From assembly GCA_902547175.1 (NCBI GenBank), contig CACCMS010000015.1, forward strand, positions 1-20,902: a DNA stretch of 20,902 bases. The letters are read 5' to 3'. The notes under the pieces are model-generated. The model did no database searches. It saw only the letters and a list, made by a program, of their open reading frames with translations, and was not told where the DNA came from. Below are positions 1,385 through 18,791 of the stretch, one piece after another. Every line of letters begins with the position of its first letter. Positions within the stretch are counted from its first letter, which is position 1. Both the position numbers and the translations under genes were made by a program. This stretch comes from Rhodospirillaceae bacterium (GTDB lineage: Bacteria; Pseudomonadota; Alphaproteobacteria; TMED109; TMED131).

Positions 1385-1693
1385 TTAAGCAATAAGTGAG
1401 TACTTTATATTTCTTCTATATACAGGCCTATTAGTTCTTACTACAGTTAACAGACTTTCTGATTCTGAGATTATCAGATAAATATTCTTACTTTTTTCTA
1501 ATACATCTTTTTTATATGTATTAAGTTGATGTAGTTTGCTTACTTTTATTTTAGATATGTATATAGCTCTAGCATTTCCCATTTTTTTTACTATTTTGTC
1601 TGCTTCTTTATAAATCATTTCTATAATTTCTTTTTTAATTCCTCTTTGTCTTGCTCTCTTTAAAGAGTGAGTGGTGTAAGTTATATTTTTCAT
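1385..1693 (-). CDS. DUF4258-like small protein under an ECF-type promoter
   Basis: A 102-residue basic protein that begins with the pattern typical of DUF4258 proteins (THSLKRARQRGIKKEIIEMI) and ends with a strand-rich segment (IYLIISESESLLTVVRTNRP), as in that family. DUF4258 proteins are small, of unclear biochemical role, and have been compared with toxin-like folds. There is no catalytic evidence here. The start is well supported: AAGGAG lies just upstream of the ATG. An ECF-type promoter (GGAAC at 1742-1746, GTC at 1722-1724, minus strand) ends about 30 bases before the start. The gene stands alone and diverges from the Sel1/caspase gene. No partner antitoxin gene is visible beside it. 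Confidence 0.72.
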   Translation of the reverse strand: MKNITYTTHSLKRARQRGIKKEIIEMIYKEADKIVKKMGNARAIYISKIKVSKLHQLNTYKKDVLEKSKNIYLIISESESLLTVVRTNRPVYRRNIKYSLIA

Positions 1694-1721
1694 ATTTTTC
1701 TCCTTTTATTACACCTTTAAA

Positions 1722-1748
1722 GACAACTAAAAAGCAGAAAAGTTCCAA
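1722..1748 (-). promoter_or_regulatory. ECF-type promoter P1 (DUF4258-like gene)
   Basis: On the minus strand TTGGAACTTT is followed by GTCTTTA with exactly 17 bases between GGAAC (1742-1746) and GTC (1722-1724). It precedes the Shine-Dalgarno site and ATG of the gene starting at 1693. The same motif and spacing occur three more times in this window. Confidence 0.85.
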
Positions 1749-1761
1749 AAAATAACAAAAA

Positions 1762-1789
1762 TTGATATTTTTAAAGAAGTATTTAAAAT
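1762..1789 (+). promoter_or_regulatory. Sigma-70-like promoter predicting a leaderless caspase transcript
   Basis: TTGATA (1762-1767), a 16-base spacer and TAAAAT (1784-1789). The second ATG of the following frame (1796) lies exactly 6 bases after the -10 hexamer, where transcription would start. No Shine-Dalgarno site is present. This selects 1796 over 1790 as the start codon. Confidence 0.55.
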
Positions 1790-1795
1790 ATGAAT

Positions 1796-3691
1796 ATGCA
1801 AATAATATTAAATTTTATTATTTTTATTTTGTTTATTATTAATTCTAGGGCCGAAGAAATAAATAAATGTAATTTATTTGCTTCTTCAGAAAATGTTCAA
1901 CAGTTAGAAGATATTGAAACAGATAAGGCGATTAAATATTGCCGCGAATACGTAGATAAATTTCCAAAAAATAAAAATTATACTTTTCAATTAGCTAGAG
2001 CCTATTATGCAAAAGAAGATTTTAATAATAGTTTTAGCTTTTCAAAAAAGGCTGTACAACTTGGCTCTGCAGAAGCAATTAATTTATTAGCATTACATTA
2101 CCATTATGCGGAAGGTACTGATGAAAACTTTACTAAAGCTATAGAGTTATATCAAAAAGCTATTGAAATGGGTAATACTGATGCCTTAGTTAATCTTGGA
2201 ATAATGTATGAAGAAGGCAATGATTTTATTAAAAAAGATTTAGATAAAGCTCTTTCTTTATATAATCAAGCTTCTAATCTTGGAAATATGACAGGCACTT
2301 TTTTTTTAGCAGAAATATATGCATATGGTTTTGAAAATATTAAAAAGGATGAAAAAAAAGCTTTTAAACTGATGGAGTTAGCAGAGAAACAAGGGTTTTC
2401 CCTTGATGTTATAAACTATTTAGGTACAGCATATATACATGGAATAGGAGTGCCTAGGGACATTAATAAGGCAATTTATTACTTAGAAATAGCAGAAAAT
2501 AATAATGACCCGCAAGCACCTCTTAATTTAGGGTATATTTATCAGTTAGGAGACGGAGGAATTAATATAGATTTAGATAAAGCATTTAAATACTATAGAA
2601 ATGCACACAATAGAAAAAACTTTGCTGGTACTCTCATGCTTGCACAGCTATATGAACAAGGTCTAGTAGATGATAGAATAGACCTAGACGTTGCTTTCGA
2701 CTTATATTTAAAAGCAGCAGTTGAAGGTGGAGACTTAACAGCTATGGGTATCGTAGGAGATTATTATAAGGAGGGCAAAGGTAAAGTAGAGAAAAATTTA
2801 GACGAAGCAAAAAAATGGTATTTAAAAATTGTAAACTTCAAAGAAGATGACTTTAATACTATTATTAACAATAATGAGGTGACTGGAAAGGATGCTATTC
2901 TAACTGCTCAGGCTAGGTTAGAAGAAGTGGAGAAAAGTCTTGAAAATATTTATGCAAATGTAGAATTCGGAAATTATTATGCCTTATTAATAGGAAACAA
3001 AAATTATAAAAGCCTTCCTGCCCTGCAAAACAGTCTAAATGATGTTAGAGCTTTAAAAAATGTTTTAGAAAGTCAATATAATTACACCGTTGAAATTTTA
3101 GAAGATGCTACAGAAGAGGAAATTTGGAAATCATTTTATAATTATAGAAAACTTACAGAAAAAGATAATCTTTTAATTTATTATGCTGGACACGGTGAGT
3201 TGGATAAGCAAACAGATAATGGTTACTGGTTGCCAATAGACGCAGACCCTAAAATACCAAATAGATGGATATCGGATGTAGATATCAAGAGTAATCTTCG
3301 TGCAATAAAAGCACAGCACATAATGGTCATTGCAGACTCATGTTTTTCAGGAAAATTATTAAGAAATATAAGCAAGATAGATTTAGTTGACCTCAAGAAA
3401 AAAGCACTATTGAAAAAACTATTAGATAAAAAAATAAGAGTAGCACTTACCTCTGGAGGAGAAGAACCTGTTTTAGATAGCGGAGGAGGTAAACACTCAA
3501 TTTTTGCAAAGCATTTTATAGATATATTAAAGAAAAACTCAGATATCCTTTCAGGAAATAAAGTTTACAATGCTTTAAAGGAAGAACTAATATTAAATGC
3601 TCAACAAACACCACGTTATAATTTTATTCAAAACTCTGGATCACAGGTAGACGCTGACTATGTGTTTGTACCAAAAAAATTCTTACAATAA
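1796..3691 (+). CDS. Exported Sel1-repeat protein with C-terminal caspase-like (C14) peptidase domain
   Basis: About 631 residues. A signal peptide (MQIILNFIIFILFIINSRAEE) leads into about eight Sel1/TPR-like repeats of roughly 36 residues (recurring A..LG..Y..G...KD..KA..). A caspase-like peptidase domain starts near residue 391 (FGNYYALLIGNKNYKSLPAL). Both catalytic residues are present: His in IYYAGHG (about 466) and Cys in IADSCFSG (about 516). The family cleaves peptides after acidic or basic residues, so it is predicted to be an active protease in the periplasm, with the repeats as a protein-binding module. A frame-compatible ATG six bases earlier (1790) is possible, but the promoter geometry favours 1796. 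It lies between the P1 and P2 ECF promoters without having one itself. The domain is closely related to that of the protein at 9739-11184. Confidence 0.93.
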   Translation: MQIILNFIIFILFIINSRAEEINKCNLFASSENVQQLEDIETDKAIKYCREYVDKFPKNKNYTFQLARAYYAKEDFNNSFSFSKKAVQLGSAEAINLLALHYHYAEGTDENFTKAIELYQKAIEMGNTDALVNLGIMYEEGNDFIKKDLDKALSLYNQASNLGNMTGTFFLAEIYAYGFENIKKDEKKAFKLMELAEKQGFSLDVINYLGTAYIHGIGVPRDINKAIYYLEIAENNNDPQAPLNLGYIYQLGDGGINIDLDKAFKYYRNAHNRKNFAGTLMLAQLYEQGLVDDRIDLDVAFDLYLKAAVEGGDLTAMGIVGDYYKEGKGKVEKNLDEAKKWYLKIVNFKEDDFNTIINNNEVTGKDAILTAQARLEEVEKSLENIYANVEFGNYYALLIGNKNYKSLPALQNSLNDVRALKNVLESQYNYTVEILEDATEEEIWKSFYNYRKLTEKDNLLIYYAGHGELDKQTDNGYWLPIDADPKIPNRWISDVDIKSNLRAIKAQHIMVIADSCFSGKLLRNISKIDLVDLKKKALLKKLLDKKIRVALTSGGEEPVLDSGGGKHSIFAKHFIDILKKNSDILSGNKVYNALKEELILNAQQTPRYNFIQNSGSQVDADYVFVPKKFLQ

Positions 3692-3714
3692 TTTTCATAT
3701 TTTTTTTTAAAATT

Positions 3715-3745
3715 TTGGAACTTTTTATAAGTTTAGTTGTCTTTA
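3715..3745 (+). promoter_or_regulatory. ECF-type promoter P2 (Sel1-repeat gene)
   Basis: TTGGAACTTT with GGAAC at 3717-3721, 17 bases, then GTCTTTA with GTC at 3739-3741. The downstream leader has a Shine-Dalgarno site (AAAGAGGA) before the ATG at 3773. Confidence 0.87.
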
Positions 3746-3772
3746 AAAGTAGATAATAAAGAGGATTAAACT

Positions 3773-4993
3773 ATGAAAAAAAATAATTTTATAAATAATA
3801 TTAATTACAATAATCAGATACTTTATAATTTTCTTAAGGATATCGTAAAATTCTTTGGATTTTTAGCTTTTATATTAGGGATATATTTTTTCCTATTAAT
3901 TAAACAAGTAAATTCAAAAAATTTATATTTAAGTAATTATTCTGAAGTTCAAATAGATGTTGCAATAGAGTTGCAAAAAAAAGGTAATTATGTAGCTGCG
4001 GAAGAAGTATTATTGAATGCTTATTCTAATGGTAATAAAGAGGCAGCATATAATTTAGGTTGGTTATACAAAGCAGATAACAAATTTTATGACTTAGAAA
4101 AAGTTTATGGATGGTGGGAATTAGCTGCGTTATCAGGAGATAAGCGTGCCATATATAATATAGCAATTGCTTATTCAGAAGGTGAATTTTATGAAAAAGA
4201 TGTTAATAAGGCAATAGAACTATTTATCTATGTTGCTGAATATTATAATGATGCTTTTATAATTATAGGTGACATATATAGAATGGATAAAGCTGATTAT
4301 AAACAAGCAGCTTATTTTTATTCGAAAGCATTAAATGCTAAAGAACAAGACATTAAAAAAGATGCTCACTCTGCCCTAGCTAGCCTGTATTTTAGTGATG
4401 AGTACTTAGATTTTTTAAAAGGTTTTGAGCATGCTGAATTAGCAGCCAACTATGGAGACAAGCACTCTTTATTTGCTATAGGTACTGCTTACGTTAAAGG
4501 TATTGAAAGTAATAATAGAGAAAAAAATATTATAGAAAAAGATATAATTAAGGGCATGCTATATTTAGAAAAAGCAGCTGAGAAGGGACATGAAGAAGCA
4601 ATGCTACATTTTTCATATATAGGTCTTGAATTTGCGGAGACAAAAGAAGAAGAAATGAAAATTGCTAAATATATATTAGCTCTAGCTGAGAAGAATAATT
4701 TGGAAGGAATTAAGTTAGCTGCTGGAATTTATGGAAAAGGTTTTGGTGTTAATGTAGATGAGTTAAAAGCATTTTCCTTTATAACTCAAGCTGCTAAATT
4801 AGGGGATAATTATTCTCAGTTTTATTTAGGTCAAATTTATAAGATTGGTAATTATTTTATAAAGCCTAATGCAGACAGGTCAAAATATTGGATAGAACAA
4901 GCTGCGAAAAATGGTAGTGTACAAGCTCAAGAAGAGCTAGCTAAAATCAAACTTAATAGTAAAACAAATGATAATGAGTTTTTTATTAATTAG
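3773..4993 (+). CDS. Membrane-anchored Sel1-repeat protein
   Basis: A 406-residue protein with an Asn-rich cytoplasmic N-terminus, one transmembrane helix at about 25-43 (VKFFGFLAFILGIYFFLLI), then Sel1/TPR-like repeats to the end. Examples include AAYNLGWLYKA, AIYNIAIAYSEG, AMLHFSY and SQFYLGQIYKIG. Sel1 repeats form alpha-solenoids that bind other proteins, and no enzymatic domain is visible. The repeat region should face the periplasm. The ATG is preceded by AGAGGA at normal spacing and by an ECF-type promoter. A strong hairpin terminator follows, so it is a single-gene transcript. It may act with the neighbouring Sel1/caspase protein, since both carry the same repeat type; that is inference from proximity. 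Confidence 0.88.
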   Translation: MKKNNFINNINYNNQILYNFLKDIVKFFGFLAFILGIYFFLLIKQVNSKNLYLSNYSEVQIDVAIELQKKGNYVAAEEVLLNAYSNGNKEAAYNLGWLYKADNKFYDLEKVYGWWELAALSGDKRAIYNIAIAYSEGEFYEKDVNKAIELFIYVAEYYNDAFIIIGDIYRMDKADYKQAAYFYSKALNAKEQDIKKDAHSALASLYFSDEYLDFLKGFEHAELAANYGDKHSLFAIGTAYVKGIESNNREKNIIEKDIIKGMLYLEKAAEKGHEEAMLHFSYIGLEFAETKEEEMKIAKYILALAEKNNLEGIKLAAGIYGKGFGVNVDELKAFSFITQAAKLGDNYSQFYLGQIYKIGNYFIKPNADRSKYWIEQAAKNGSVQAQEELAKIKLNSKTNDNEFFIN

Positions 4994-5007
4994 ATATCTT
5001 TAAGAGT

Positions 5008-5045
5008 AGTGTTGTTGATTCATTATTCTATCAACAACACTTTTC
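5008..5045 (+). terminator. Rho-independent terminator after the Sel1 gene
   Basis: A perfect 12-base inverted repeat (AGTGTTGTTGAT at 5008-5019, ATCAACAACACT at 5030-5041) with a 10-base loop, followed by TTTTCT. It begins 15 bases after the stop codon of the Sel1-repeat gene. Confidence 0.85.
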
Positions 5046-5062
5046 TAAAATAAATATTTAAA

Positions 5063-5812
5063 ATGGAGCTTAAATTGAAATATTTAATAATTATAATATT
5101 GCTTTCAACATATTCAATGGTAAGTAGCAAAGATGAAATTATAAACATAAAAAGTGTAAAAGAAATGTTTAAAGACAGAAACCCCAGTTTAGAATTTGAA
5201 TATAATTATTTTTTTAATTTTTCTGTTGGAGATGAGTCGCCAATGAACACGCTAATAGAATTATCAAAAAAATTAGAAAATGATGACGATTATATTGTGA
5301 TAAAAAAAGGCTCATTTAGGCTGATAAAAGATAAAATAAATGATTATGTATATTTTGGTAATCACCATATAGTAATTGAAGCAGAAAATCAGTTGATATG
5401 GCAAAGTGTACATTTATTAATCGATAAGCCTATTAAAGGAAAAGGAAATGTTTTGGTTTCTGATGACTTTGGTTGTCGGGATTGGAATGTATTAGACTGG
5501 ATTGAAAGAAATGATTTTGAGGAATATAATTATCTTCCATTAATCAGGCTGAATGATGACGACTTTAATAAGACAAAGCATGATTTATTCACAATACCAT
5601 ATTTTAATAGAAAGCCTAATACAGTAGTAATAGCACTTGGTGAGTCAGGTAACCATGGAGGAGGACATAGGTATATTTTATTTGATACTAATACACATGA
5701 ATATGCAGTATTAGGTCCTTTTAAAAATTGTGGAAAGTTTCCTGATACTCTAACTAGCAAAGAGCATAAAAGAACAAACATCTTTTTAAAAATTAAAGAA
5801 ATTTTTAACTAG
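5063..5812 (+). CDS. Hypothetical exported protein
   Basis: A protein of 245-249 residues with a clear N-terminal signal peptide (KYLIIIILLSTYSMVSS). I recognise no family. The mature part is acidic and rich in Asp, Asn and aromatic residues. Notable segments are a His pair (GNHHIVIE), a Cys-containing segment (SDDFGCRDW) and a glycine/histidine motif near the C-terminus (GESGNHGGGHRYILFD). The second Cys is in GPFKNCGKF, so one disulfide is possible. Start choice is open: ATG 5063 has no Shine-Dalgarno site, whereas TTG 5075 has GGAG six bases upstream and would begin right at the signal peptide. It follows a terminator, so it needs its own promoter. It ends 11 bases before the convergent HIT gene. 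Confidence 0.8.
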   Translation: MELKLKYLIIIILLSTYSMVSSKDEIINIKSVKEMFKDRNPSLEFEYNYFFNFSVGDESPMNTLIELSKKLENDDDYIVIKKGSFRLIKDKINDYVYFGNHHIVIEAENQLIWQSVHLLIDKPIKGKGNVLVSDDFGCRDWNVLDWIERNDFEEYNYLPLIRLNDDDFNKTKHDLFTIPYFNRKPNTVVIALGESGNHGGGHRYILFDTNTHEYAVLGPFKNCGKFPDTLTSKEHKRTNIFLKIKEIFN

Positions 5813-5823
5813 CAAATTAAAAT

Positions 5824-6222
5824 CTATTTAGTTTTATATATTCTTTTACTAGGAATTACTCCCCTTATTCCTCCTTCAGGGTTTCGCATATCTTTATGTC
5901 TTCTTGGGATAAGATGTATATGAGTATGAAAAATTGTTTGTCCTGCGTCTTTACCTATATTTATACCTACATTAAAAGCAGAAATAGTTTTATCCAAATT
6001 AGTTAATTTTCCTTTCTCTTTATTCAATATTAAATGTAATTCAATAATTTCTTCATTGGTAAGATTAAAGTAGCTTTCTTCATGTCTATACGGAATTATA
6101 AGATAGTGAAATTTAGATACAGGATATAAGTCTTCTAAAACATAGAAGAATTTATATTTACTAATTATTCTTTCTTCTGGAGGAAAACAGAAAATACAAT
6201 CTTTAACTAAATTTTTTTTCAT
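5824..6222 (-). CDS. HIT-family nucleotide hydrolase
   Basis: A 132-residue cytoplasmic protein of the histidine-triad superfamily, which hydrolyses or transfers nucleotides at an alpha-phosphate (for example Ap4A or AMP conjugates). The catalytic triad motif is intact: FHTHIHLIPRR with His 99, 101 and 103. A CxxC near the N-terminus (CIFC, 9-12) resembles the zinc-binding pair of many HIT proteins. The downstream GGIRGVIPSKRIY is usual for the bacterial Ap4A-hydrolase-like branch. The start overlaps the end of the upstream HNH gene by 20 bases, so the two are co-translated. The transcript probably starts at the P4 ECF promoter. The physiological substrate cannot be told from sequence. Confidence 0.93.
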   Translation of the reverse strand: MKKNLVKDCIFCFPPEERIISKYKFFYVLEDLYPVSKFHYLIIPYRHEESYFNLTNEEIIELHLILNKEKGKLTNLDKTISAFNVGINIGKDAGQTIFHTHIHLIPRRHKDMRNPEGGIRGVIPSKRIYKTK

Positions 6223-7216
6223 TTATTTTTGTTATTAACTTTCTATAGAATACATCTTTTTCTGGATTATACTCTTTTTTTCCACCCCAGTAAGCATTAC
6301 CTCTAATAACTTTAGCATTTTCATAGTGCCTTAAAGTATTTTGTTTTCTTTTTTGTGGAGTATTTCCTAATTGTTGAGAAATTCTATGTTTCCATGGGTG
6401 GCTGCTTCCCATAATATTTTCATTTCTAATAATTAATTTTTTTATGAAGTGAGGAGCTACTAACAAATCTGTTTTGAGCATATTACACGTAGAGTGAGCA
6501 ATAACTAAATTCCAAATTTCATCGTGATTTATTATTTGTCTAGGTATAACATGATCAACATGCATAGATGTCATTGATTCCCCGCAGTAAAAGCATACAT
6601 TTCCTTGATAAGGGTTTAAAAAATTTATATTTTTAGTAATATCTTTTCTTTCATAACCACTCTTTATGTAAATATCTCTTAGATCATTAGCCAATTGGAA
6701 ATTATATTCGGAATGATTTATTTTAAATGCAGACTCAACTAATTTCCATCTTGTATCAACTTCTTTAAATAGTTCATCTTCAAATTCGTTTACAATTTCA
6801 AAAATATTATCTTTAAGAGTGATTTTTTTTCCAAATTCATAATCATAAAAATAATTTTTTGCAAATTTACTATCTAATCCTATTGTATGAAATCTTGGGA
6901 CAACATCATTTAAACCTTCTAAAGCGACCGACTGTACTGCTTTATCCATATCTATTTTATTTAGATTTAATTGTTTTGTAATTTTTTCTATTTTTGATAA
7001 TTTCCCTCTTGTATTATGTTGAGGAAAGTCAGATGTAGATAAATGCTTTATATATAAATTTAGGAATTGCTTAGAAAAATCTTCCCATTTAATATTAGTA
7101 ATTCCATTTTTAGCAAATAATAGAATATTTTTGGCTAAAGCAGGTTTGTACGTCGTAACATTCAGCCCTAACAGTGTGATAGCCTTCCAATACTCTATAT
7201 TGCTAATCTTATTCAT
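6203..7216 (-). CDS. HNH endonuclease domain protein
   Basis: A 337-residue protein. The N-terminal 200 residues are mostly helical and not recognised. An HNH nuclease module lies at about 204-262: CFYC (208-211) and a second zinc pair formed with HSTC (Cys 244), MHVDHVIPR with the metal-binding HxxDH core (219-222), WNLVIAH, then CNMLK (Asn 245, Lys 248). This order, CxxC, HVDHVIPR, WNLV, H..CN..K, is that of metal-dependent HNH nucleases, and all key residues are present. The start has AGAGGA eight bases upstream. It follows a 37-residue membrane peptide gene and overlaps the HIT gene. Nuclease plus nucleotide hydrolase under a sigma-type stress promoter suggests a conflict or DNA-damage role; this is inference. 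Confidence 0.9.
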   Translation of the reverse strand: MNKISNIEYWKAITLLGLNVTTYKPALAKNILLFAKNGITNIKWEDFSKQFLNLYIKHLSTSDFPQHNTRGKLSKIEKITKQLNLNKIDMDKAVQSVALEGLNDVVPRFHTIGLDSKFAKNYFYDYEFGKKITLKDNIFEIVNEFEDELFKEVDTRWKLVESAFKINHSEYNFQLANDLRDIYIKSGYERKDITKNINFLNPYQGNVCFYCGESMTSMHVDHVIPRQIINHDEIWNLVIAHSTCNMLKTDLLVAPHFIKKLIIRNENIMGSSHPWKHRISQQLGNTPQKRKQNTLRHYENAKVIRGNAYWGGKKEYNPEKDVFYRKLITKINEKKFS

Positions 7217-7232
7217 TACTTTTGTCCTCTAT

Positions 7233-7346
7233 TTAAAATAATATTGAGTAAACAATCAATATTATAATTAATAAAAAAAAGAAAAAGAATCTAGGATACA
7301 TAAACATAATAACAATTATAAAAAGTATCCAGAACATCCAATGCAT
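7233..7346 (-). CDS. 37-residue membrane peptide, first gene of the HNH-HIT operon
   Basis: A short open frame of 37 residues, nearly all hydrophobic (MHWMFWILFIIVIMFMYPRF, then a Phe/Leu/Ile run). It can form one long or two short transmembrane segments broken at Tyr-Pro-Arg. AGAGGA stands just before the ATG, and the P4 ECF-type -10 is 19 bases upstream. The stop is 16 bases before the HNH start, which has its own Shine-Dalgarno site. Promoter, ribosome site and hydrophobic composition together argue that it is real despite its size. I recognise no family. It could be a membrane sensor or toxin-like peptide. Confidence 0.65.
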   Translation of the reverse strand: MHWMFWILFIIVIMFMYPRFFFFFLLIIILIVYSILF

Positions 7347-7361
7347 ATAATCCTCTATTAT

Positions 7362-7392
7362 TAAAGACACATAATTAGTTAGAAAGTTCCAA
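7362..7392 (-). promoter_or_regulatory. ECF-type promoter P4 (membrane peptide, HNH, HIT operon)
   Basis: On the minus strand TTGGAACTTT (GGAAC at 7386-7390), then 17 bases, then GTCTTTA (GTC at 7366-7368). It is divergent from P3, with the two -35 elements 38 bases apart. Confidence 0.85.
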
Positions 7393-7426
7393 CTTTTTTA
7401 AATTTTTTTAAAAAAACAAAACTTTT

Positions 7427-7457
7427 TTGGAACTTTTAGCTTTGCGAGGTGTCTTTA
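7427..7457 (+). promoter_or_regulatory. ECF-type promoter P3 (ARPP-1-like gene)
   Basis: TTGGAACTTT (GGAAC at 7429-7433), 17 bases, GTCTTTA (GTC at 7451-7453). The open frame can be extended upstream through this promoter from a TTG at 7427, but that codon is part of the -35 element. The true start is therefore the ATG at 7481. Confidence 0.87.
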
Positions 7458-7480
7458 TAGGTAATAAAAGGAAAATACAT

Positions 7481-8362
7481 ATGAAAATTTGCGATAACTT
7501 ACTTAACGATTTTAAATTAAAAAAAATTATTAATATAGAAAATATAAATATTTATCTATTAAAGACTAAAAATAAAAACAATATAGCTGGAATAGCACTT
7601 TTAAAGGATTTAATTGATAAAGGGTTAGCATCAGTTCAGGAAATAAATGATTCTGGCAGGGTTGATACGGTTCGTGTCATCAATAATAGTAATCAGGATT
7701 TATTATTACTATCAGGGGATATATTAGAGGGTGCAAAACAAAATAGAATGATAATGGAACACGTTATAATAAAAAAAAATAGCAGTCTTGCAGTAAGTGT
7801 AAGTTGTGTAGAAAGAAATAGATGGAATTATAGAACACATAAAAACTTTCATCCCGCAGACATAAAAATTAGTCCTAAAATAAGAGCAACTAAAGATGAA
7901 TATAGTAAAAATAGATACACTGAAAACATACAAAATAAAATATGGGATGATATAGATAAAATATCTTCTAAAGCAAAAATGAATTACTTTTCTAGTGATT
8001 ATTGTGAATTTAAAGATTTATATAATAATCTAGATAATGATAAAGCAAAAAATATAATAGAAAATACTGACTTTAATGCTTATTTGGTTGAAGGCGTAGG
8101 AAAAGTATTTTTTGAATATTTTTTTTCTAATAAATTAGCAAAAAGTAACTTATTAAAATCTATTCCTTCCTACTTATGTGATCAGGATGGAAATAATTTA
8201 AATGATATTAAAGTTTTAAATTTAAGTATGCTTAAAAATTCTCAATGGCATGAATTGGATAGTATAGGGATAGGTAAAAGTTTTTCAACTGATGCAGATA
8301 ATCTAGGAAAAGCCATAATTTATAAAGATGAAATAGCACACTTATATTTTTATTTTAAATAG
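7481..8362 (+). CDS. ARPP-1-like (DUF6569-type) domain protein
   Basis: A 293-residue cytoplasmic protein. Two segments match what I know of the ARPP-1 domain: LLLLSGDILEGAKQNRMIM (about 77-92) and VSVSCVERNRW (about 105-115), i.e. the G(D/E)...GAKQNR and V-SCVE..RW signatures. The domain's biochemical activity is not established. It has been described in association with stress and nucleotide-related gene neighbourhoods. The start at 7481 is chosen because it has AAAGGAAAA upstream and lies 27 bases after the P3 -10 element, whereas the upstream extension runs through the promoter. The DUF2130 gene follows after 51 bases and may share the transcript. Confidence 0.77.
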   Translation: MKICDNLLNDFKLKKIINIENINIYLLKTKNKNNIAGIALLKDLIDKGLASVQEINDSGRVDTVRVINNSNQDLLLLSGDILEGAKQNRMIMEHVIIKKNSSLAVSVSCVERNRWNYRTHKNFHPADIKISPKIRATKDEYSKNRYTENIQNKIWDDIDKISSKAKMNYFSSDYCEFKDLYNNLDNDKAKNIIENTDFNAYLVEGVGKVFFEYFFSNKLAKSNLLKSIPSYLCDQDGNNLNDIKVLNLSMLKNSQWHELDSIGIGKSFSTDADNLGKAIIYKDEIAHLYFYFK

Positions 8363-8413
8363 TATTTAAATTTATATTTGATAATTTGTTAACATATAAC
8401 TCTAGGAAAAATT

Positions 8414-9610
8414 ATGAATGAAATAATATGTCCACACTGTAATAAAGCATTCCAAGTAGATAAGAAAGGATATGCAGATATTTTGAAACAAGTTTATGAT
8501 AAAGAATTTGAGTCTAAACTAAATGAACGTCTTCTTCAGGTTGAAAAAGATAAAACTATGGAAATTAAAATAGAAAAAAAAGAAGCAGAAAGAAAACTTC
8601 AATTAATTGAGACCGAAAAAAATAAAATTATAGATGAGCTTAAATTTAGTATTCAACAAGCAAATAGCGCAAAGCAGCTTGCAGTTTCAGAAGCAGTTAA
8701 AGATATAGAAAAAGAGAGGGATAAATTAATAAATGAATTAAATAATGCAGAGCTGATCAGAAAAAACTCTGAAAACAGCCTTAAAGATAAATACAAAGGT
8801 GAAATTAGACATAAAGATGATCTAATTAAGGTTAGAGAAGAAACTATTCAACAGCTTAAAAATATGAAAACTCAACTTTCAACTAAAATGGTAGGTGAAA
8901 CCCTAGAACAACATTGTGAAAATGAGTTTAACTCTTTACGTTCAACTGGTTTTCAATCAGCATTTTTTGAAAAAGATAATGATTCAAAAACAGGGAGTAA
9001 GGGAGATTATATATTCAAAGATTATCAGGATGATATAGAAGTGATTTCAATTATGTTTGAAATGAAAAATGAAAGTGATGCAACTACTACTAAAAGGAAG
9101 AATGAAGACTTTCTAAAAGAACTTGATAAAGATAGAAGAGAAAAAAATTGTGAGTATGCTGTTCTAGTCTCATTGTTAGAAACAGAAAATGACTTCTATA
9201 ATAATGGCATAGTTGATATGTCTCATAGATTCCCAAAGATGTATGTTATCAGGCCACAATTTTTTATACCTATAATTACTCTTTTAAGAAATGCAGCCAG
9301 AAATTCTTTACAATACAAACATGAATTAATGTTGGTAAAACAGCAAAATATTGATGTTACAAACTTTGAAACCTCACTGGCAGAGTTTAAAAGTTCTTTT
9401 GGCAGAAATTATGAGCTAGCATCACGAAAATTTTCAACTGCTATAGAGCAAATTGATAAATCAATTAATCATTTAAATAAAACAAAAGATGCACTATTGA
9501 GAGCTGATGATAATTACAGAATAGCTAACAAAAAAGCACAAGATGTGACAATAAAAAAATTGACTAAGAATAATCCTACTATGGCAAAAAAGTTTGATAA
9601 GATTAATTAA
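8414..9610 (+). CDS. DUF2130 family protein with zinc-knuckle N-terminus
   Basis: A 398-residue protein that matches DUF2130 over its length. The N-terminal CPHC (6-9) suggests half of a zinc knuckle. A long coiled coil spans about 20-155 (Lys/Glu/Ala-rich heptads). The conserved globular part then includes TGSKGDYIF (193-201) and, after a strand, MFEMKNE (Glu 216, Lys 218). RKNEDFLKELDKDR and MYVIRPQFFIPIITLLRNAA follow, both typical of the family. The D198...E216-x-K218 spacing resembles a PD-(D/E)XK nuclease core; I offer that as inference. AGGAAA precedes the ATG. It sits downstream of the ARPP-1-like gene and is probably co-transcribed from P3. Confidence 0.88.
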   Translation: MNEIICPHCNKAFQVDKKGYADILKQVYDKEFESKLNERLLQVEKDKTMEIKIEKKEAERKLQLIETEKNKIIDELKFSIQQANSAKQLAVSEAVKDIEKERDKLINELNNAELIRKNSENSLKDKYKGEIRHKDDLIKVREETIQQLKNMKTQLSTKMVGETLEQHCENEFNSLRSTGFQSAFFEKDNDSKTGSKGDYIFKDYQDDIEVISIMFEMKNESDATTTKRKNEDFLKELDKDRREKNCEYAVLVSLLETENDFYNNGIVDMSHRFPKMYVIRPQFFIPIITLLRNAARNSLQYKHELMLVKQQNIDVTNFETSLAEFKSSFGRNYELASRKFSTAIEQIDKSINHLNKTKDALLRADDNYRIANKKAQDVTIKKLTKNNPTMAKKFDKIN

Positions 9611-9738
9611 TAATGAGTTTGCGGTTTTAATTTTAATTGATGTATTCATTTTTTTTCCTTTTGTTAAGTTAATATGTTTATAGAACGGAGAAATAATATT
9701 TTTATTTCAATTTTTTTTATTTTTTTTAAAATATATTT

Positions 9739-11184
9739 ATGTTGAGATTTAAAATAATCTTTTTTCTAATTTTTGGGTTTATTGTATCAGCTGGATTTTC
9801 TATTGAATTTACAGAAATCATTGCTCCAGATGGCAAAAAAATAAAGATAGCAATACCTAAAAATATTTGTAATGCACCAGAAAATATTCAAAAAAGTCAA
9901 AAAAAGTATGTAGAAAATTTATATAAGGCACTTAATTTCAATGATGTAATAATAAAAAACATTTTAATGAGCTGTGGTTTTGATAAAAATTATCCATGGG
10001 GTTATATTACTATAGAAAAAAAAATATATGATGATAAGTTTACTCAGCTTGATTTAAATGAGGAAGTAGCACCAAGTTTTGAGTTATCTAAAAAAGATGT
10101 AGATAGTATTAAGCAAGCCCACGAAGAAGTAGACACTGATATTAAAAATCAAAAAGTTGGATCATCCCAAATTATTATTTCTGATGAAAATGCATTTATT
10201 GCTACTATGCCAGTAAGTGTAGAAGCAGCAGGAAAAGGTTTTAAAGAAATTAGTACTGTCGCAACTATGCGATATAAAAATTATGTTATAACTTATTTCA
10301 TTTATGATTTAGAAAAAAATTATTCTACTTTTGAATTTGCTGGGACATTAAATGATGCTATTAAAAATACTAAGTTAGGTGAGAAAAGTTTAAGAGGTCA
10401 ATTAGAGCTAGAAAAAAATAAAGAAGAAAATAAAAATGATGAAAAAAATTTAAATTTCGGAAACTATCATGCCTTAATAATTTCTAATAATGAATATAAA
10501 TATCTACCAAAATTACAAAATGCAGTTAATGATGGAAAAGCAGTAGATGTAATTTTAAGAAAAAAATATGGCTTCAAGACTACTTTCATTAAAGATGCTA
10601 GTGAAGAGGATATATTTTTAGCTTTAAATAAATTTAAAAAACTTAATAAGAGTGATAATCTACTAATTTACTATTCGGGACATGGACAATTGGATGAAGT
10701 TTCTAATTCAGGATATTGGCAACCAGTTGATGCTAGAGAAGACGTCAAAAATAATTGGATTTCTGACATAGATATTAAAAATGAATTAAAATCAATAAAT
10801 GCTAAACATATCTTAGTAATTGCAGATTCTTGTTTTTCAGGAACACTATTAACTAGGGGTAAAAAAATTAACAATAAAAAATATGATCTTGATGAAAAAG
10901 TATTATTGTATAGACAGATTAATAAAAAAGTGCGACTAGCTCTCACATCAGGAGGAGAAAGTCCTGTATTAGATAAAATAGGCTCTCAAGAAAATTCTAT
11001 ATTTGCTAAAGAATTAATAAAAATACTTAGTGGTTCTGAAGATATTATTTCAGCTCGTGAAATACATAGCAAAATATTCCCTAGACTAAGTTTTGAATTT
11101 CGACAGGAACCTCTTTTATCAGAAATAAGAGGTGTAGATAGTGATTTAAACGGAGATTTCTTTTTTGTTCCTACAAACGAATAA
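9739..11184 (+). CDS. Exported caspase-like (C14) peptidase
   Basis: A 481-residue protein with a signal peptide (MLRFKIIFFLIFGFIVSAGF), an unrecognised N-terminal domain (about 25-215), a Lys/Glu/Asn-rich linker and a C-terminal caspase-like domain from about 238 (FGNYHALIISNNEYKYLPKL). Catalytic His 315 (IYYSGHG) and Cys 365 (IADSCFSG) are both present. The peptidase domain is a close paralogue of the one at 1796-3691, with long shared blocks such as WISDIDIKNEL against WISDVDIKSNL. The Sel1 repeats of the first protein are replaced here by a different domain, so this looks like duplication with domain exchange. No Shine-Dalgarno site is seen. A TAAAAT hexamer (9727-9732) ends 6 bases before the ATG, so translation may be leaderless; its -35 is weak. 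Confidence 0.92.
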   Translation: MLRFKIIFFLIFGFIVSAGFSIEFTEIIAPDGKKIKIAIPKNICNAPENIQKSQKKYVENLYKALNFNDVIIKNILMSCGFDKNYPWGYITIEKKIYDDKFTQLDLNEEVAPSFELSKKDVDSIKQAHEEVDTDIKNQKVGSSQIIISDENAFIATMPVSVEAAGKGFKEISTVATMRYKNYVITYFIYDLEKNYSTFEFAGTLNDAIKNTKLGEKSLRGQLELEKNKEENKNDEKNLNFGNYHALIISNNEYKYLPKLQNAVNDGKAVDVILRKKYGFKTTFIKDASEEDIFLALNKFKKLNKSDNLLIYYSGHGQLDEVSNSGYWQPVDAREDVKNNWISDIDIKNELKSINAKHILVIADSCFSGTLLTRGKKINNKKYDLDEKVLLYRQINKKVRLALTSGGESPVLDKIGSQENSIFAKELIKILSGSEDIISAREIHSKIFPRLSFEFRQEPLLSEIRGVDSDLNGDFFFVPTNE

Positions 11185-11700: not shown

Positions 11701-11724
11701 AACATGACTTCTATGAACAGACAA

Positions 11725-13270: not shown

Positions 13271-13708
13271 ATGAAAAAAATTATACTGATAACTTTGGTA
13301 CTAATTGTATCTTATGGGAATGTTACCGCAGAAGGATACTCTATGAAAAGCATAGGAAAGAATAACTTTAAAAGTATGATAATTAATAATGAAAAACTCA
13401 CTATAGTAGAAAATAATTTTACTTGGATAGACTCTTTTGCTAATTATGGAATAGGTTTTTGCTATGGTAGTATTATAAATGATAATGATAATATTACTCT
13501 TAATAATTTTTGTGAATTTACTGATAGTAATGAAAATAAATTTTGGTCAAAAGTACATAGAGTTTCCTCAAATTTAAAATCTGGTTTGGGGAAACAACAG
13601 TTTTTGAAAGCCTCTGATAAATATATATTTCTCTTAGAGAAAGATTGCAAATACGCAGTATCTTTTTTTCATGAAGTTAATTATTTATTAGAATTAAAAT
13701 GCAAATAA
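13271..13708 (+). CDS. Exported four-cysteine family protein, paralogue 1
   Basis: A 145-residue protein with a signal peptide (MKKIILITLVLIVSYGNVTA). It shares with five other proteins in this window an aromatic residue then DS.xNYG.xxC.G (here WIDSFANYGIGFCYG), a second Cys before Glu (FCEF), a glycine turn (SGLGK), then KY..L...CKYA and a final KC. The four Cys probably form two disulfides in the periplasm. The pattern suggests a small beta-rich domain. I do not know a named family or function. Unlike most paralogues it has a Shine-Dalgarno site (AAGGAAAG). The divergent start also sets its promoter apart from the others. Its stop overlaps the small membrane gene that follows by 10 bases. 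Confidence 0.85.
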   Translation: MKKIILITLVLIVSYGNVTAEGYSMKSIGKNNFKSMIINNEKLTIVENNFTWIDSFANYGIGFCYGSIINDNDNITLNNFCEFTDSNENKFWSKVHRVSSNLKSGLGKQQFLKASDKYIFLLEKDCKYAVSFFHEVNYLLELKCK

Positions 13709-14079: not shown

Positions 14080-14511
14080 ATGAAAATAATTATGGGACTA
14101 TTTTTTTTTTATTCACTTAAACTTCTATCAACAGACTATATTTTTGACTCTCGTGGTGGTAGTGAGCAGAAAACATTAAAGTTTCAAGATAATAGTAAAT
14201 TTATTCACATTACTACTAATGGATTATGGGTAGACTCTAAAGGCAATTATGGTAACGAAGTATGTTATGGTAGTGTGGAAATAGCTGGTGACAATCAAAA
14301 AATTGATATCCTATGTGAACTGATAGACCAAGAAGGAATAGTTTTTAAAGTTTCAAGGAAAAGAAATTCTTTAGTTGGTGGTGGCGTAGGTATGAATACT
14401 TATATAGAAGTACCAGAAAAATACAAGTTTCTTAAAGAAAAAAAATGCACATATGCTGTAACGCAATTAAATACAGATTTTTTTTATAAACAAAAATGTA
14501 AGTTAGATTAA
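14080..14511 (+). CDS. Exported four-cysteine family protein, paralogue 2
   Basis: A 143-residue protein with an N-terminal signal sequence (MKIIMGLFFFYSLKLLSTDY), followed by the family pattern in full: LWVDSKGNYGNEVCYG, LCELID, a glycine turn (GGGVGMNTYIE), KYKFLKEKKCTYA and a C-terminal KQKCK. It is closest to paralogue 3: both have F-[VW] before the RNS block and both end FFYKQ.C, so the two look like a recent tandem duplication. The promoter and start are immediately adjacent with no Shine-Dalgarno site. Function is unknown. Confidence 0.87.
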   Translation: MKIIMGLFFFYSLKLLSTDYIFDSRGGSEQKTLKFQDNSKFIHITTNGLWVDSKGNYGNEVCYGSVEIAGDNQKIDILCELIDQEGIVFKVSRKRNSLVGGGVGMNTYIEVPEKYKFLKEKKCTYAVTQLNTDFFYKQKCKLD

Positions 14512-14583: not shown

Positions 14584-15015
14584 GTGAAAATTTTTTACAC
14601 AATGATTATTATTTTTTTGTATATAAGCAATTCATATTCTAAAAGTTATGAATTGGAATGGACGGGAGATATAGAATTTACAAAAAGTATAATTTATCAA
14701 GATAAAAGTATTTTTAAAATTGTTCATCCCACCGGTTATTGGAAAGATAGTGATGGTAATTTTGGAAATTTTAGTTGTATAGGATGGGTTAAAAATATAA
14801 AAGATAAAGAGAGTTTAGAAGTAAATTGTGAGGCCCTAGATAATGAAAACGATAGATTTTGGGTTATATTAAATAGAAATTCTGAAATAGGTGCTGGTGT
14901 AGGTATTACAACTTATATTGATGCTACTGGTAAATACAAAAAATTACTTAATAAAAAGTGTAAATATGCAATAAATTACTTTAAAACTGGCTTTTTTTAT
15001 AAACAAGTATGTTAA
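14584..15015 (+). CDS. Exported four-cysteine family protein, paralogue 3
   Basis: A 143-residue protein that begins at GTG; no ATG in frame gives an intact signal peptide (residues 1-19, ending ISNSYS). The family pattern is complete: GYWKDSDGNFGNFSCIG, NCEALD, GAGVGITTYIDATGKYKKLL, NKKCKYA and a last Cys one residue before the stop. It has a two-residue shorter tail than paralogue 2. Initiation seems leaderless at GTG. The segment DATGKYKKLLNKKC resembles the G.GKY..L.G turn of calycin- or AOC-barrel-like secreted proteins, which hints at a beta-barrel fold but does not prove it. Confidence 0.86.
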   Translation: MKIFYTMIIIFLYISNSYSKSYELEWTGDIEFTKSIIYQDKSIFKIVHPTGYWKDSDGNFGNFSCIGWVKNIKDKESLEVNCEALDNENDRFWVILNRNSEIGAGVGITTYIDATGKYKKLLNKKCKYAINYFKTGFFYKQVC

Positions 15016-17146: not shown

Positions 17147-17632
17147 TTACTCATTCTCAAAAAAAGAAAACAACTCGTTGTCAATACTACATTTCACTTT
17201 TGCATGTGACGCTCCTTCTTCATATTCGAAATATACAAAATTACATGATTGACCTTTTAACTTTTTCCAACGCCCACTGCCACCTATAAATAAAACTTTA
17301 ACAGCTAGCTCTGTTACCTCACCCTTTCTAGAACTCTCAGTATTATTATTTTTTAAAACATAATAGCCTTTATTTTCTCCCTCTCTAAGCTCACATATAA
17401 TATTTAACACTACATTTTTATTGTAGATTTCAGTTGTTCCAGCACACTCACTATTGCCATAAATATTGGTATTAGTTTTAAAAACGCTTTGAGTAGTTAC
17501 CATCCTAAAAAAATTATTTTCATCAATAGCATATGTCTTTACTTCTTCTTTTCCAAAAACATCTATGACTAGTTCTTTACTTGATATATTTACAGAAAAT
17601 ATAACGAGTGCAAAAATTAGAATATATTTCAT
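17147..17632 (-). CDS. Exported four-cysteine family protein, paralogue 4 (most diverged)
   Basis: About 161 residues. The signal peptide is MKYILIFALVIFSVNISS. The family skeleton is recognisable but worn: the aromatic-DS motif is missing (VFKTNTNIYGNSECAG), the second Cys is in ICELREG, and GGSGRWKKLKGQSCNFVYF and KVKC complete the four Cys. A 12-residue acidic and aromatic tail follows. An upstream ATG cluster would add seven residues, but TTGTGA-N16-TATAAT ends exactly 6 bases before the ATG at 17632, so that start is preferred and the mRNA is predicted to be leaderless. Its promoter lies across the edge of the long repeat at 17650-17760. Confidence 0.78.
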   Translation of the reverse strand: MKYILIFALVIFSVNISSKELVIDVFGKEEVKTYAIDENNFFRMVTTQSVFKTNTNIYGNSECAGTTEIYNKNVVLNIICELREGENKGYYVLKNNNTESSRKGEVTELAVKVLFIGGSGRWKKLKGQSCNFVYFEYEEGASHAKVKCSIDNELFSFFENE

Positions 17633-17638
17633 ATTCAT

Positions 17639-17666
17639 ATTATATATCATCACTACTTATTCACAA
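17639..17666 (-). promoter_or_regulatory. Sigma-70-like promoter, leaderless (paralogue 4)
   Basis: On the minus strand TTGTGA (17661-17666), a 16-base spacer and TATAAT (17639-17644), with 6 bases to the ATG at 17632. The -35 and much of the spacer lie in repeat copy B. Confidence 0.65.
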
Positions 17667-17823: not shown

Positions 17824-18252
17824 ATGCGATTTTTTATTTTTTTATTTTTTTTTTCAATAAATTCTTACGCTATAGATTGGAGTTTTAAATACTCTGGTTT
17901 TAGTGAAATAAAAAAGCTAAATTTTAATACCAGTGATGAAGCAATTAATTTTAATAATTATGGAACCTGGGAGGATAGTTTAGGAAATTATGGAGAAGGA
18001 AAGTGTCAAGGGATGTCAACCATAGAAGATAATCAGAACGACATGAAGTTTTATTGTGAATATATTGATCAAGATAATGAAAAAATGATAGGTAAAGGAA
18101 TAAGAAAATCAGATATTAACGCAGGTGTAGGTAAGATGGTAATGATAGATGGTGAAGGCAAATGGAAAAAAATAATAGGTGCTGAATGTACTTATGCGAT
18201 TAAGTACAAGGGAAGAGTATTTTTTGCTGCACAAAAATGTAAAAAAAAATAG
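17824..18252 (+). CDS. Exported four-cysteine family protein, paralogue 5
   Basis: A 142-residue protein with a short, Phe-rich signal peptide (MRFFIFLFFFSINSYA, cleavage likely after SYA). The family pattern is complete: GTWEDSLGNYGEGKCQG, YCEYIDQ, INAGVGKMVMIDGEGKWKKI, AECTYAIKY and a C-terminal QKCKKK. The GEGKWKKIIGAEC segment is one of the clearest instances of the conserved turn and is shared in near form with paralogue 4 (GSGRWKKLKGQSC), its divergent neighbour. No Shine-Dalgarno site is present. Function is unknown. Confidence 0.86.
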   Translation: MRFFIFLFFFSINSYAIDWSFKYSGFSEIKKLNFNTSDEAINFNNYGTWEDSLGNYGEGKCQGMSTIEDNQNDMKFYCEYIDQDNEKMIGKGIRKSDINAGVGKMVMIDGEGKWKKIIGAECTYAIKYKGRVFFAAQKCKKK

Positions 18253-18347: not shown

Positions 18348-18791
18348 TTAAAACTTGCACTTTTGCATAGAGAAATAGTCTGAAGACTTTAAATAAGTGA
18401 CTGCATGAGAACACTCGGCTCCTATTAAATAACTATAACTTTTTGATGCTTCTACTATTTTAGCTACTCCTGCACCTGATTCTTGATATTCCGAATCTCT
18501 GTAGATTTTTATTATAAAATAGTCATCTTTTTGAGATGTATTTTTACAATAAACATTAAATCCATTCTTTCCGTTTTTATCAGAAGTAACAGTACCCATA
18601 CATGTATGTAGTCCGAAGTCTCCAGTAGAACTTTTCCAATGGCCATTAGACTTATAAAGCTTGTATGAGCTATTATCATTAAAGGTATATCCACTGATGT
18701 CAGCTTTGCCAGTACCTTCAATTATTATTTCTCCTGCTTTTACAAAAGATACAAATAGAAACGTAAGTATTAGTATTAATCTTCTAATCAT
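18348..18791 (-). CDS. Exported four-cysteine family protein, paralogue 6
   Basis: A 147-residue protein with signal peptide MIRRLILILTFLFVSFVKA. The pattern is kept with changes: GHWKSSTGDFGLHTCMG (Asp replaced by Ser), YCKNTSQKDD (Glu after the second Cys replaced by Lys), SGAGVAKIVEASKSYSYLIG, AECSHAVTYL and MQKCKF. It lies second in a minus-strand operon, eight bases after the stop of a 30-residue membrane peptide. It has no Shine-Dalgarno site, so it may depend on translational coupling. It is convergent with paralogue 5. Confidence 0.84.
   Translation of the reverse strand: MIRRLILILTFLFVSFVKAGEIIIEGTGKADISGYTFNDNSSYKLYKSNGHWKSSTGDFGLHTCMGTVTSDKNGKNGFNVYCKNTSQKDDYFIIKIYRDSEYQESGAGVAKIVEASKSYSYLIGAECSHAVTYLKSSDYFSMQKCKF

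Follow-up and report, generated by a model that had tools for sequence, protein, structure and literature searches.

The 20,902-nucleotide (nt) stretch of alphaproteobacterial DNA analyzed here, referred to as the window, begins with the 3' end of a gene for an extracytoplasmic function (ECF)-like sigma factor, which is overlapped by the gene of a candidate anti-sigma factor, and carries four copies of the bipartite sequence TTGGAACTTT-N14-GTCTTTA. Sequence comparisons indicate that a single ECF sigma factor, in all likelihood the window's own, probably uses the four sites as promoters and that they probably form a local regulon in an apparent variable island.

Four promoter-like sites in the window

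All four sites matched the pattern at each of its 17 fixed positions (Table 1). The initial annotation had reported four such sites and the number was correct, with site 1 given one end short (1722–1748 in place of 1718–1748). The gap between GGAAC and GTC, described there as a constant 17 bases, was of this length at every site, and GGAAC-N17-GTC was detected exactly four times in the window. The same distance separates GGAAC from GTC in sigma-E (RpoE) promoters. The sites had further been called intergenic, which held for three of them, located outside every open reading frame (ORF) of at least 80 codons; the site at 7427 overlapped the TTG-extended form of the 7481 gene and no other ORF of that size. 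Start codons followed the GTC at 19–31 nt, in agreement with the predicted position of the sites some 20–30 bases ahead of a gene.

As the annotation had anticipated, well under one such site per window would be produced by chance. GGAAC-N17-GTC was expected 0.04 times on the basis of dinucleotide shuffles and 0.05 times under an order-3 model, against four occurrences observed. With up to three mismatches to the 17-position pattern allowed, the window still gave just the four exact matches, versus 0.28 expected. The next closest places in it differed at four positions, a level also reached in most other loci scanned. Because the pattern was derived from the window, these expectations are post hoc and its frequency elsewhere matters more. 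The control set comprised 21 genomes of at most 1.7 Mb (about 27.7 Mb altogether) from the 28 genomes of the relatives' order that were searched. GGAACTT-N15-GTC was found in them seven times, always within an ORF, and this background rate gives 0.005 sites expected in the window. The seven larger genomes of the order, with 60 matches, were excluded from the rate. Read backwards, the pattern gave 77 matches in the small genomes versus seven forward, the forward motif being about 10 times rarer, which could reflect avoidance of stray promoters or a bias in base order. The exact motif occurred in viral_contigs as three single matches, and the five genomes with the closest relatives of the window's CoA-transferase contained one two-mismatch match in total. 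Another sequence, GGAACATTTAAATCTTATTATTCGT, was identical in two genomes of the order (G008:C34:12319-12343 and G011:C5:39230-39254); either a conserved promoter of the ECF type or a coincidence of coding sequence could account for it.

Sigma-E promoters have the -35 element GGAACTTTT and the -10 element GTCAAA (PMC1804206), and all four sites combine a GGAACTT -35 with a GTC -10 at the GGAAC-N17-GTC spacing. This agreement supports the earlier proposal of ECF-type promoters defining a local regulon, the locality having been seen in a single relative, G014 (see below). For a set of promoters, agreement at all 17 positions in every site is strict, and it would suit an operator bound by some regulator other than a sigma factor. 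Such an operator is, however, very unlikely, as the blocks are neither palindromic nor repeated, are close to the sigma-E promoter elements (PMC1804206) and at each of the four sites point at a gene a short distance away. Identical blocks at all sites (pairwise identity of 1.00) could likewise have been left by a duplication in the recent past or by a small repeat that is mobile and placed the four copies. In the spacers, by contrast, the pairwise identity was only 0.29–0.57 and in the 60-nt flanks 0.23–0.57, with a base-composition level of 31% and the top flank value belonging to the divergent AT-rich pair of sites; since spacers and flanks diverge, the sites are not recent copies, and an origin of this kind is hardly credible.

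In a de novo test of 5-mer pairs, the motif did not stand above shuffled sequences. It was counted three times in the window, because the TTG-extended ORF hid the fourth site, and the best pair per shuffle reached 2–4 copies (30 shuffles). The top pair of the window in this test was an inverted repeat with a sequence different from that of the motif.

The sigma gene, its neighbor and a similar module in a relative

The part of the sigma gene present in the window encodes a region 4 of the ECF type, with sigma-E and SigW as its best matches. The NCBIfam models sigma70-ECF (E 2.6e-7), SigW (8.8e-7) and RpoE (6e-6) were all matched under their curated cut-offs, and the sole PDB match at E <=0.05 was 2h27, region 4 of E. 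coli sigma-E on -35 DNA (E 0.015). Used as the sole query, the last 159 codons retrieved no protein relative; over 158 residues, the fragment shared 89% identity with positions 192–349 of P0009, a full-length relative of 349 amino acids (aa). A structure model of P0004, a relative of the G014 type, showed a sigma 4 fold near the C-terminus, with AlgU and sigma-E nearest in PDB and every E >0.001. Region 2 lies mostly outside the window. In the relatives, region-2-like helices appeared split by a long stretch, located between apparent regions 2.2 and 2.3 on the basis of the sequence and a low-confidence model, and no match to Pfam Sigma70_r2 was obtained in the sigma relatives scanned. As the likely full-length relatives have 285–349 aa and contain this extra stretch, the protein is referred to as ECF-like and not as a canonical ECF sigma factor. 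The sigma alignment (A4) revealed no relative in viral_contigs and, among 385 evenly drawn genomes of the class, only G014 itself (E <=1e-6).

The annotation had named the neighboring sigma/anti-sigma pair as the candidate reader of the sites. A sigma-E-like region 4 encoded beside GGAACTTT sites is coherent with this choice, given the blocks of sigma-E promoters (PMC1804206), and G014 has a similar gene layout with its own motif around the pair; the window's sigma factor would then be the one that recognizes the four promoters. It is unlikely that the sites are ECF promoters read by another, RpoE-like ECF sigma factor encoded elsewhere, with the window's sigma factor reading something else. 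A GTC -10 is common to sigma-E promoters in general (PMC1804206) and the sigma genes of the host genome outside the window are beyond view, but the core motif is rare and found only within ORFs in the 21 small genomes, as expected if no resident sigma factor uses it, and the similar pair of G014 has a cluster of a similar motif around it. EcfG was set aside as the reader; its canonical -10 element is CGTT (PMC8103513).

By its position and layout, the gene following the sigma gene is a candidate anti-sigma gene. Its product has a helical N-terminus, one hydrophobic helix at about residues 109–124 and a beta-rich C-terminal domain in a structure model of low confidence (mean predicted local distance difference test score, pLDDT, of 50, with the N-terminus mostly <50). 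No Pfam or NCBIfam family was assigned to it, and a fold search gave nothing at E <=0.001. The alignment of this protein (A1) included three relatives at 93, 57 and 49% identity; the relative from G014 showed only a weak match to zf-HC2 (E 0.041). A search with A1 yielded no relative in genome_contigs, viral_contigs or the 385 class genomes, the last being a weak negative because A1 also missed G014, found only by the wider alignment A2. In the window, G011 and G014 alike, the sigma gene is overlapped by a membrane-protein gene.

Of the 28 genomes of the order, G011 and G014 were the two in which relatives of the candidate anti-sigma factor were identified, both with caspases on the same contig; caspases were present in five of the 28, these two included. 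In G014 (contig C6) the gene order is Sel1-caspase, sigma, anti-sigma and PG-binding caspase. De novo analysis of this region revealed the motif GGAAC...CGT with 16–17 nt between the blocks. GGAACA-N16-CGT was found five times in the G014 genome, four of them within 10 kb around the sigma/anti-sigma pair, and GGAACA-N15-CGT four times, two on the contig of the module. For both spacings together, six of the nine genome-wide matches were located within 18.2 kb, and a T preceded CGT in all six local sites and in none of the three distant ones. One of the local sites lies 35 nt before MzaB (PADLOC E 3.9e-76), followed in the operon by MzaC (4.3e-77 and 3.5e-42 for two pieces scanned apart), MzaD (1.1e-25) and MzaE (1.5e-62). 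The set that defines an Mza system, MzaB to MzaE together, was thus found, and MzaA was not identified in G014. Immediately past the Mza operon, another site is followed by a 116-aa gene and a Sel1 gene. With a site placed ahead of MzaB, the sigma module of G014 may well control anti-phage defence of a type already known.

Several observations weigh against the reading of a local ECF regulon with linked caspases. The locality of the motif was seen in G014 only and not, genome-wide, for the GTC-type sites of the window. Three islands were compared (those of the window, G011 and G014), and the one in G011 lacked the same clear motif; no GGAAC-N17-GTC site was detected in this sister island (L060) even at one mismatch. 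The clustering in G014 is partly circular, as the region that yielded the motif de novo is the one in which it was then counted. GGAACA-N16-CGT was present 0–5 times in each of the 20 other small genomes (37 in total), so that its number in G014 is ordinary and only its clustering unusual. The preset template GGAAC-N17-CGT gave six matches in G014, four of them local, and 2–9 in five other genomes, mostly on different contigs, and its backwards control gave 19 in G014. In the 5-mer-pair test, the G014 motif pair, with three copies versus 2–3 in shuffles, was not above the shuffles; the top pair of the region, with four copies versus 2–3, was another, AT-rich sequence. One of the six local sites is situated inside the sigma gene (L074 8996) and one overlaps the extended form of its gene (L074 4300). 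No motif site was found in the approximately 60 nt upstream of the G014 sigma gene, and autoregulation is therefore not supported in G014. In the window, the Sel1-caspase gene (1790–3691) has no copy of the motif upstream, and in three of the 28 genomes caspases were detected with no anti-sigma relative found.

A possible protease-controlled switch and its known counterparts

Few regulators are expected in streamlined bacteria, and the bacterium of the window probably has a small genome. In the mechanism proposed, the sigma factor would be held at rest by the single-pass membrane protein encoded beside its gene. A signal from the envelope would lead to the loss of the anti-sigma factor, with the caspase-like proteins of the island as candidate periplasmic proteases or sensors. 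Once free, the sigma factor would guide RNA polymerase to the GGAACTT-N15-GTC promoters, all four of which would become active and drive the DUF4258-like 102-aa protein, the Sel1-repeat membrane protein, the ARPP-1/DUF2130 unit and the 37-aa peptide together with the HNH nuclease. The outcome may be an inducible stress response or anti-phage defence. A fuller and rather doubtful version can be formulated for streamlined marine bacteria, in which exported caspase-like proteins would sense envelope damage or phage, destroy the membrane anti-sigma factor and free an ECF-like sigma factor with a region-2 insertion. This sigma factor would read private promoters of the island and switch on a defence cargo (HNH and ARPP-1 in the window, Mza in G014), each island having its own sigma–promoter pair.

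An island serving envelope stress or a cell-surface function in place of defence is an alternative to be taken seriously, although not the favored one, and it would leave the regulatory logic unchanged. Sigma-E logic usually concerns envelope stress, inspection by eye suggests secretion or membrane attachment for several of the putatively regulated products (the Sel1 protein, the 249-aa protein and the 37-aa peptide), and the PADLOC matches of 10 window proteins were weak except for those to a generic model of caspases (E 1.7e-10 and 3.2e-7). Defence is favored by the HNH nuclease and ARPP-1 genes among those placed behind the sites, by the G014 site at the start of the Mza operon and by vsr and a UvrD-type helicase carried on the G011 contig. 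The link with defence is weaker for the window than for G014, as it consists of the HNH nuclease, ARPP-1, the caspases and, the caspase model apart, these weak PADLOC matches. No CRISPR-like repeat array was found in the window.

The logic of the module may best be read as that of DegS–RseA–sigma-E, CASP-sigma/Csx30 (PMC10028731) and CalpL–CalpT–CalpS (PMC12751052). The sigma-E/RseA/DegS system of gamma-proteobacteria is similar in the GGAACTT-type -35 and GTC -10, in region 4 and in the position of an ECF-like sigma factor beside a single-pass membrane anti-sigma candidate. It differs in that the window's set has an island-local layout, the closest full-length sigma relative has 349 aa, caspase-like proteins and not DegS are encoded nearby and G014 showed no autoregulatory site. 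In type III-E CRISPR, a single CASP-sigma/Csx30/Csx29 locus also encodes an ECF sigma factor, its inhibitor and a protease of the caspase type, and its predicted targets are local, whereas in the window the inhibitor looks membrane-bound and the proteases look exported, a comparison made by description and not by sequence (PMC10028731). No match to Cas7-11 or TPR-CHAT Csx29 was obtained among 20 window proteins scanned with Pfam and 10 with PADLOC, the DNA left of the window being unseen. CalpL/CalpT/CalpS shares the protease, anti-sigma and sigma logic in a defence setting but uses a Lon-SAVED protease and a cyclic nucleotide trigger, and neither family turned up in the scans of the window (PMC12751052).

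Neighborhoods of caspase, ECF sigma and TPR genes have been noted earlier (PMC8195603), as have metacaspase operons that include sigma factors (PMC3501461). The EACC1/EACC2-caspase conflict systems (PMC8195603) likewise bring together caspase, ECF sigma and TPR/Sel1-type proteins, whereas the window has in addition a candidate anti-sigma factor and a promoter motif. The EACC1-caspase model scored 74 against a cut-off of 140 on the 1790–3691 protein, the only caspase run, and no TRADD-N or EACC domain above the cut-off was detected in the scans of window proteins. Literature on ECF sigma with caspase and anti-sigma, on caspase/sigma/Sel1 conflict systems and on sigma factors in defence islands gave, among the matches listed and in the text portions available, no description of the module. 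Judged by these matches, the apparent novelty is that, in alphaproteobacteria with small genomes, caspase and sigma genes are joined by a candidate membrane anti-sigma factor and by a defined set of promoters specific to the island. If the proposed regulation is true, an island-confined sigma switch with its own promoter code would show how streamlined cells silence costly defence until it is needed, and the shared promoter would offer a route to linked defence genes. The module would also provide a non-CRISPR parallel to the protease–anti-sigma–sigma circuits of CASP and Calp.

Genes and surroundings of the apparent island

Table 1. Promoter-like sites and genes in the left part of the window.
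Feature	Position	Strand	Remarks
ECF-like sigma gene, 3' end	3–482	plus	last 159 codons; 5' part beyond the window
Candidate anti-sigma gene	482–1240	plus	start overlaps the sigma stop codon
DUF4258-like protein, 102 aa	1385–1693	minus	PF14076 E 0.0029, under cut-off
Site 1	1718–1748	minus	17/17; upstream of the 1385–1693 gene; 28 nt from GTC end to ATG
Sel1-repeat and caspase-like protein	1790–3691	plus	PF08238 E 2.9e-43; PF00656 E 4.7e-22; YYAGHG/DSCF
Site 2	3715–3745	plus	17/17; would serve 3773–4993, possibly 5063–5812; 31 nt from GTC end to ATG
Sel1-repeat protein	3773–4993	plus	PF08238 E 2.6e-18; N-terminal hydrophobic segment by eye
249-aa protein	5063–5812	plus	no Pfam/NCBIfam match; signal-peptide-like start by eye
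HIT-domain protein	5824–6222	minus	PF01230 E 5.9e-14; downstream of the HNH gene
HNH endonuclease gene	6203–7216	minus	PF01844 E 5.4e-8; PADLOC PDC-M01B E 2.5e-5
37-aa hydrophobic ORF	7233–7346	minus	first after site 3, ahead of the HNH gene; from translation
Site 3	7362–7392	minus	17/17; would serve the 37-aa ORF and the HNH gene; 19 nt from GTC end to start codon
Site 4	7427–7457	plus	17/17; divergent from site 3; would serve the ARPP-1 gene; 27 nt from GTC end to ATG
ARPP-1 domain protein	7481–8362	plus	PF20208 E 1.2e-43
DUF2130 protein	8414–9610	plus	PF09903 E 1.3e-84
Caspase-like protein	9739–11184	plus	PF00656 E 2.5e-20; YYSGHG/DSCF

Both caspase-like proteins possess a C14 domain with the His/Cys motifs of caspases, and their N-termini look signal-peptide-like by eye. 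The second caspase gene begins about 130 nt past the DUF2130 gene, which makes its place in the ARPP-1/DUF2130 unit uncertain.

The lineage of the window is presumably marine. The window's CoA-transferase was 94–97% identical to proteins in five genomes (one match partial), four of them named Rhodospirillaceae bacterium AG-... and one Rickettsiales bacterium SP3058. The corresponding loci aligned to the window only from base 11706 on and no anti-sigma relative was found in the five genomes, so the left half of the window looks like a variable island. In one of the five, G004, a 67% match to the HIT gene region of the window was observed. A DNA search with window positions 1385–11184 against the 28 genomes, in which 10 of 161–457 first-look candidates were scored for each of the 21 small genomes, gave a few strong matches and many short ones among the candidates scored. 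No match to phages or plasmids was obtained in a megablast search with the window. The G+C content of the window is 26.6%, just below the 27.0–32.5% of the HIMB59/AEGEAN-169 clade (PMC10308909), a closeness that does not establish the lineage.

The ARPP-1/DUF2130 genes of G011 were 81% identical in DNA to those of the window. The similarity begins at window base 7467, just past site 4, and the promoter at site 4 is itself not common to the two. In the stretch of G008 that was read, DUF2130 has a gene nearby that looks pirin-like by eye and lacks an adjacent ARPP-1, and DUF2130 may accordingly belong to the neighborhood and not to the regulon.

Further features of the related loci were noted. 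Loose AAC-N15..17-CGTT sites in G011 were discarded as too degenerate to count. A 388-aa gene ahead of the G011 anti-sigma relative (L060 2557–3723) is sigma-like only in its C-terminal helix-turn-helix (PF08281 E 0.016) and possibly encodes a strongly diverged sigma factor. Elsewhere on the same locus, a Sel1-repeat gene is split into two overlapping frames (4544–4882 and 4875–5774). Small hydrophobic ORF(s) next to ARPP-1 in G011 (L075 9290–9690) are preceded by a repeated (T)ATCGTTAA, possibly promoters of another sigma factor. G009 carries two caspase-domain genes (L076 5935–7572 and 12191–15523) with no anti-sigma relative found, one of them with MORN-like repeats by eye. In the right part of the window, six similar small secreted proteins of about 140–170 aa were recognized by eye in both orientations (13271–13708, 14080–14511, 14584–15015 and 17824–18252, and on the minus strand 17147–17653 and 18348–18791); the three scanned had no Pfam match. 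A small secreted protein resembling these six is encoded beside DUF2130 at L083 7531–8061.

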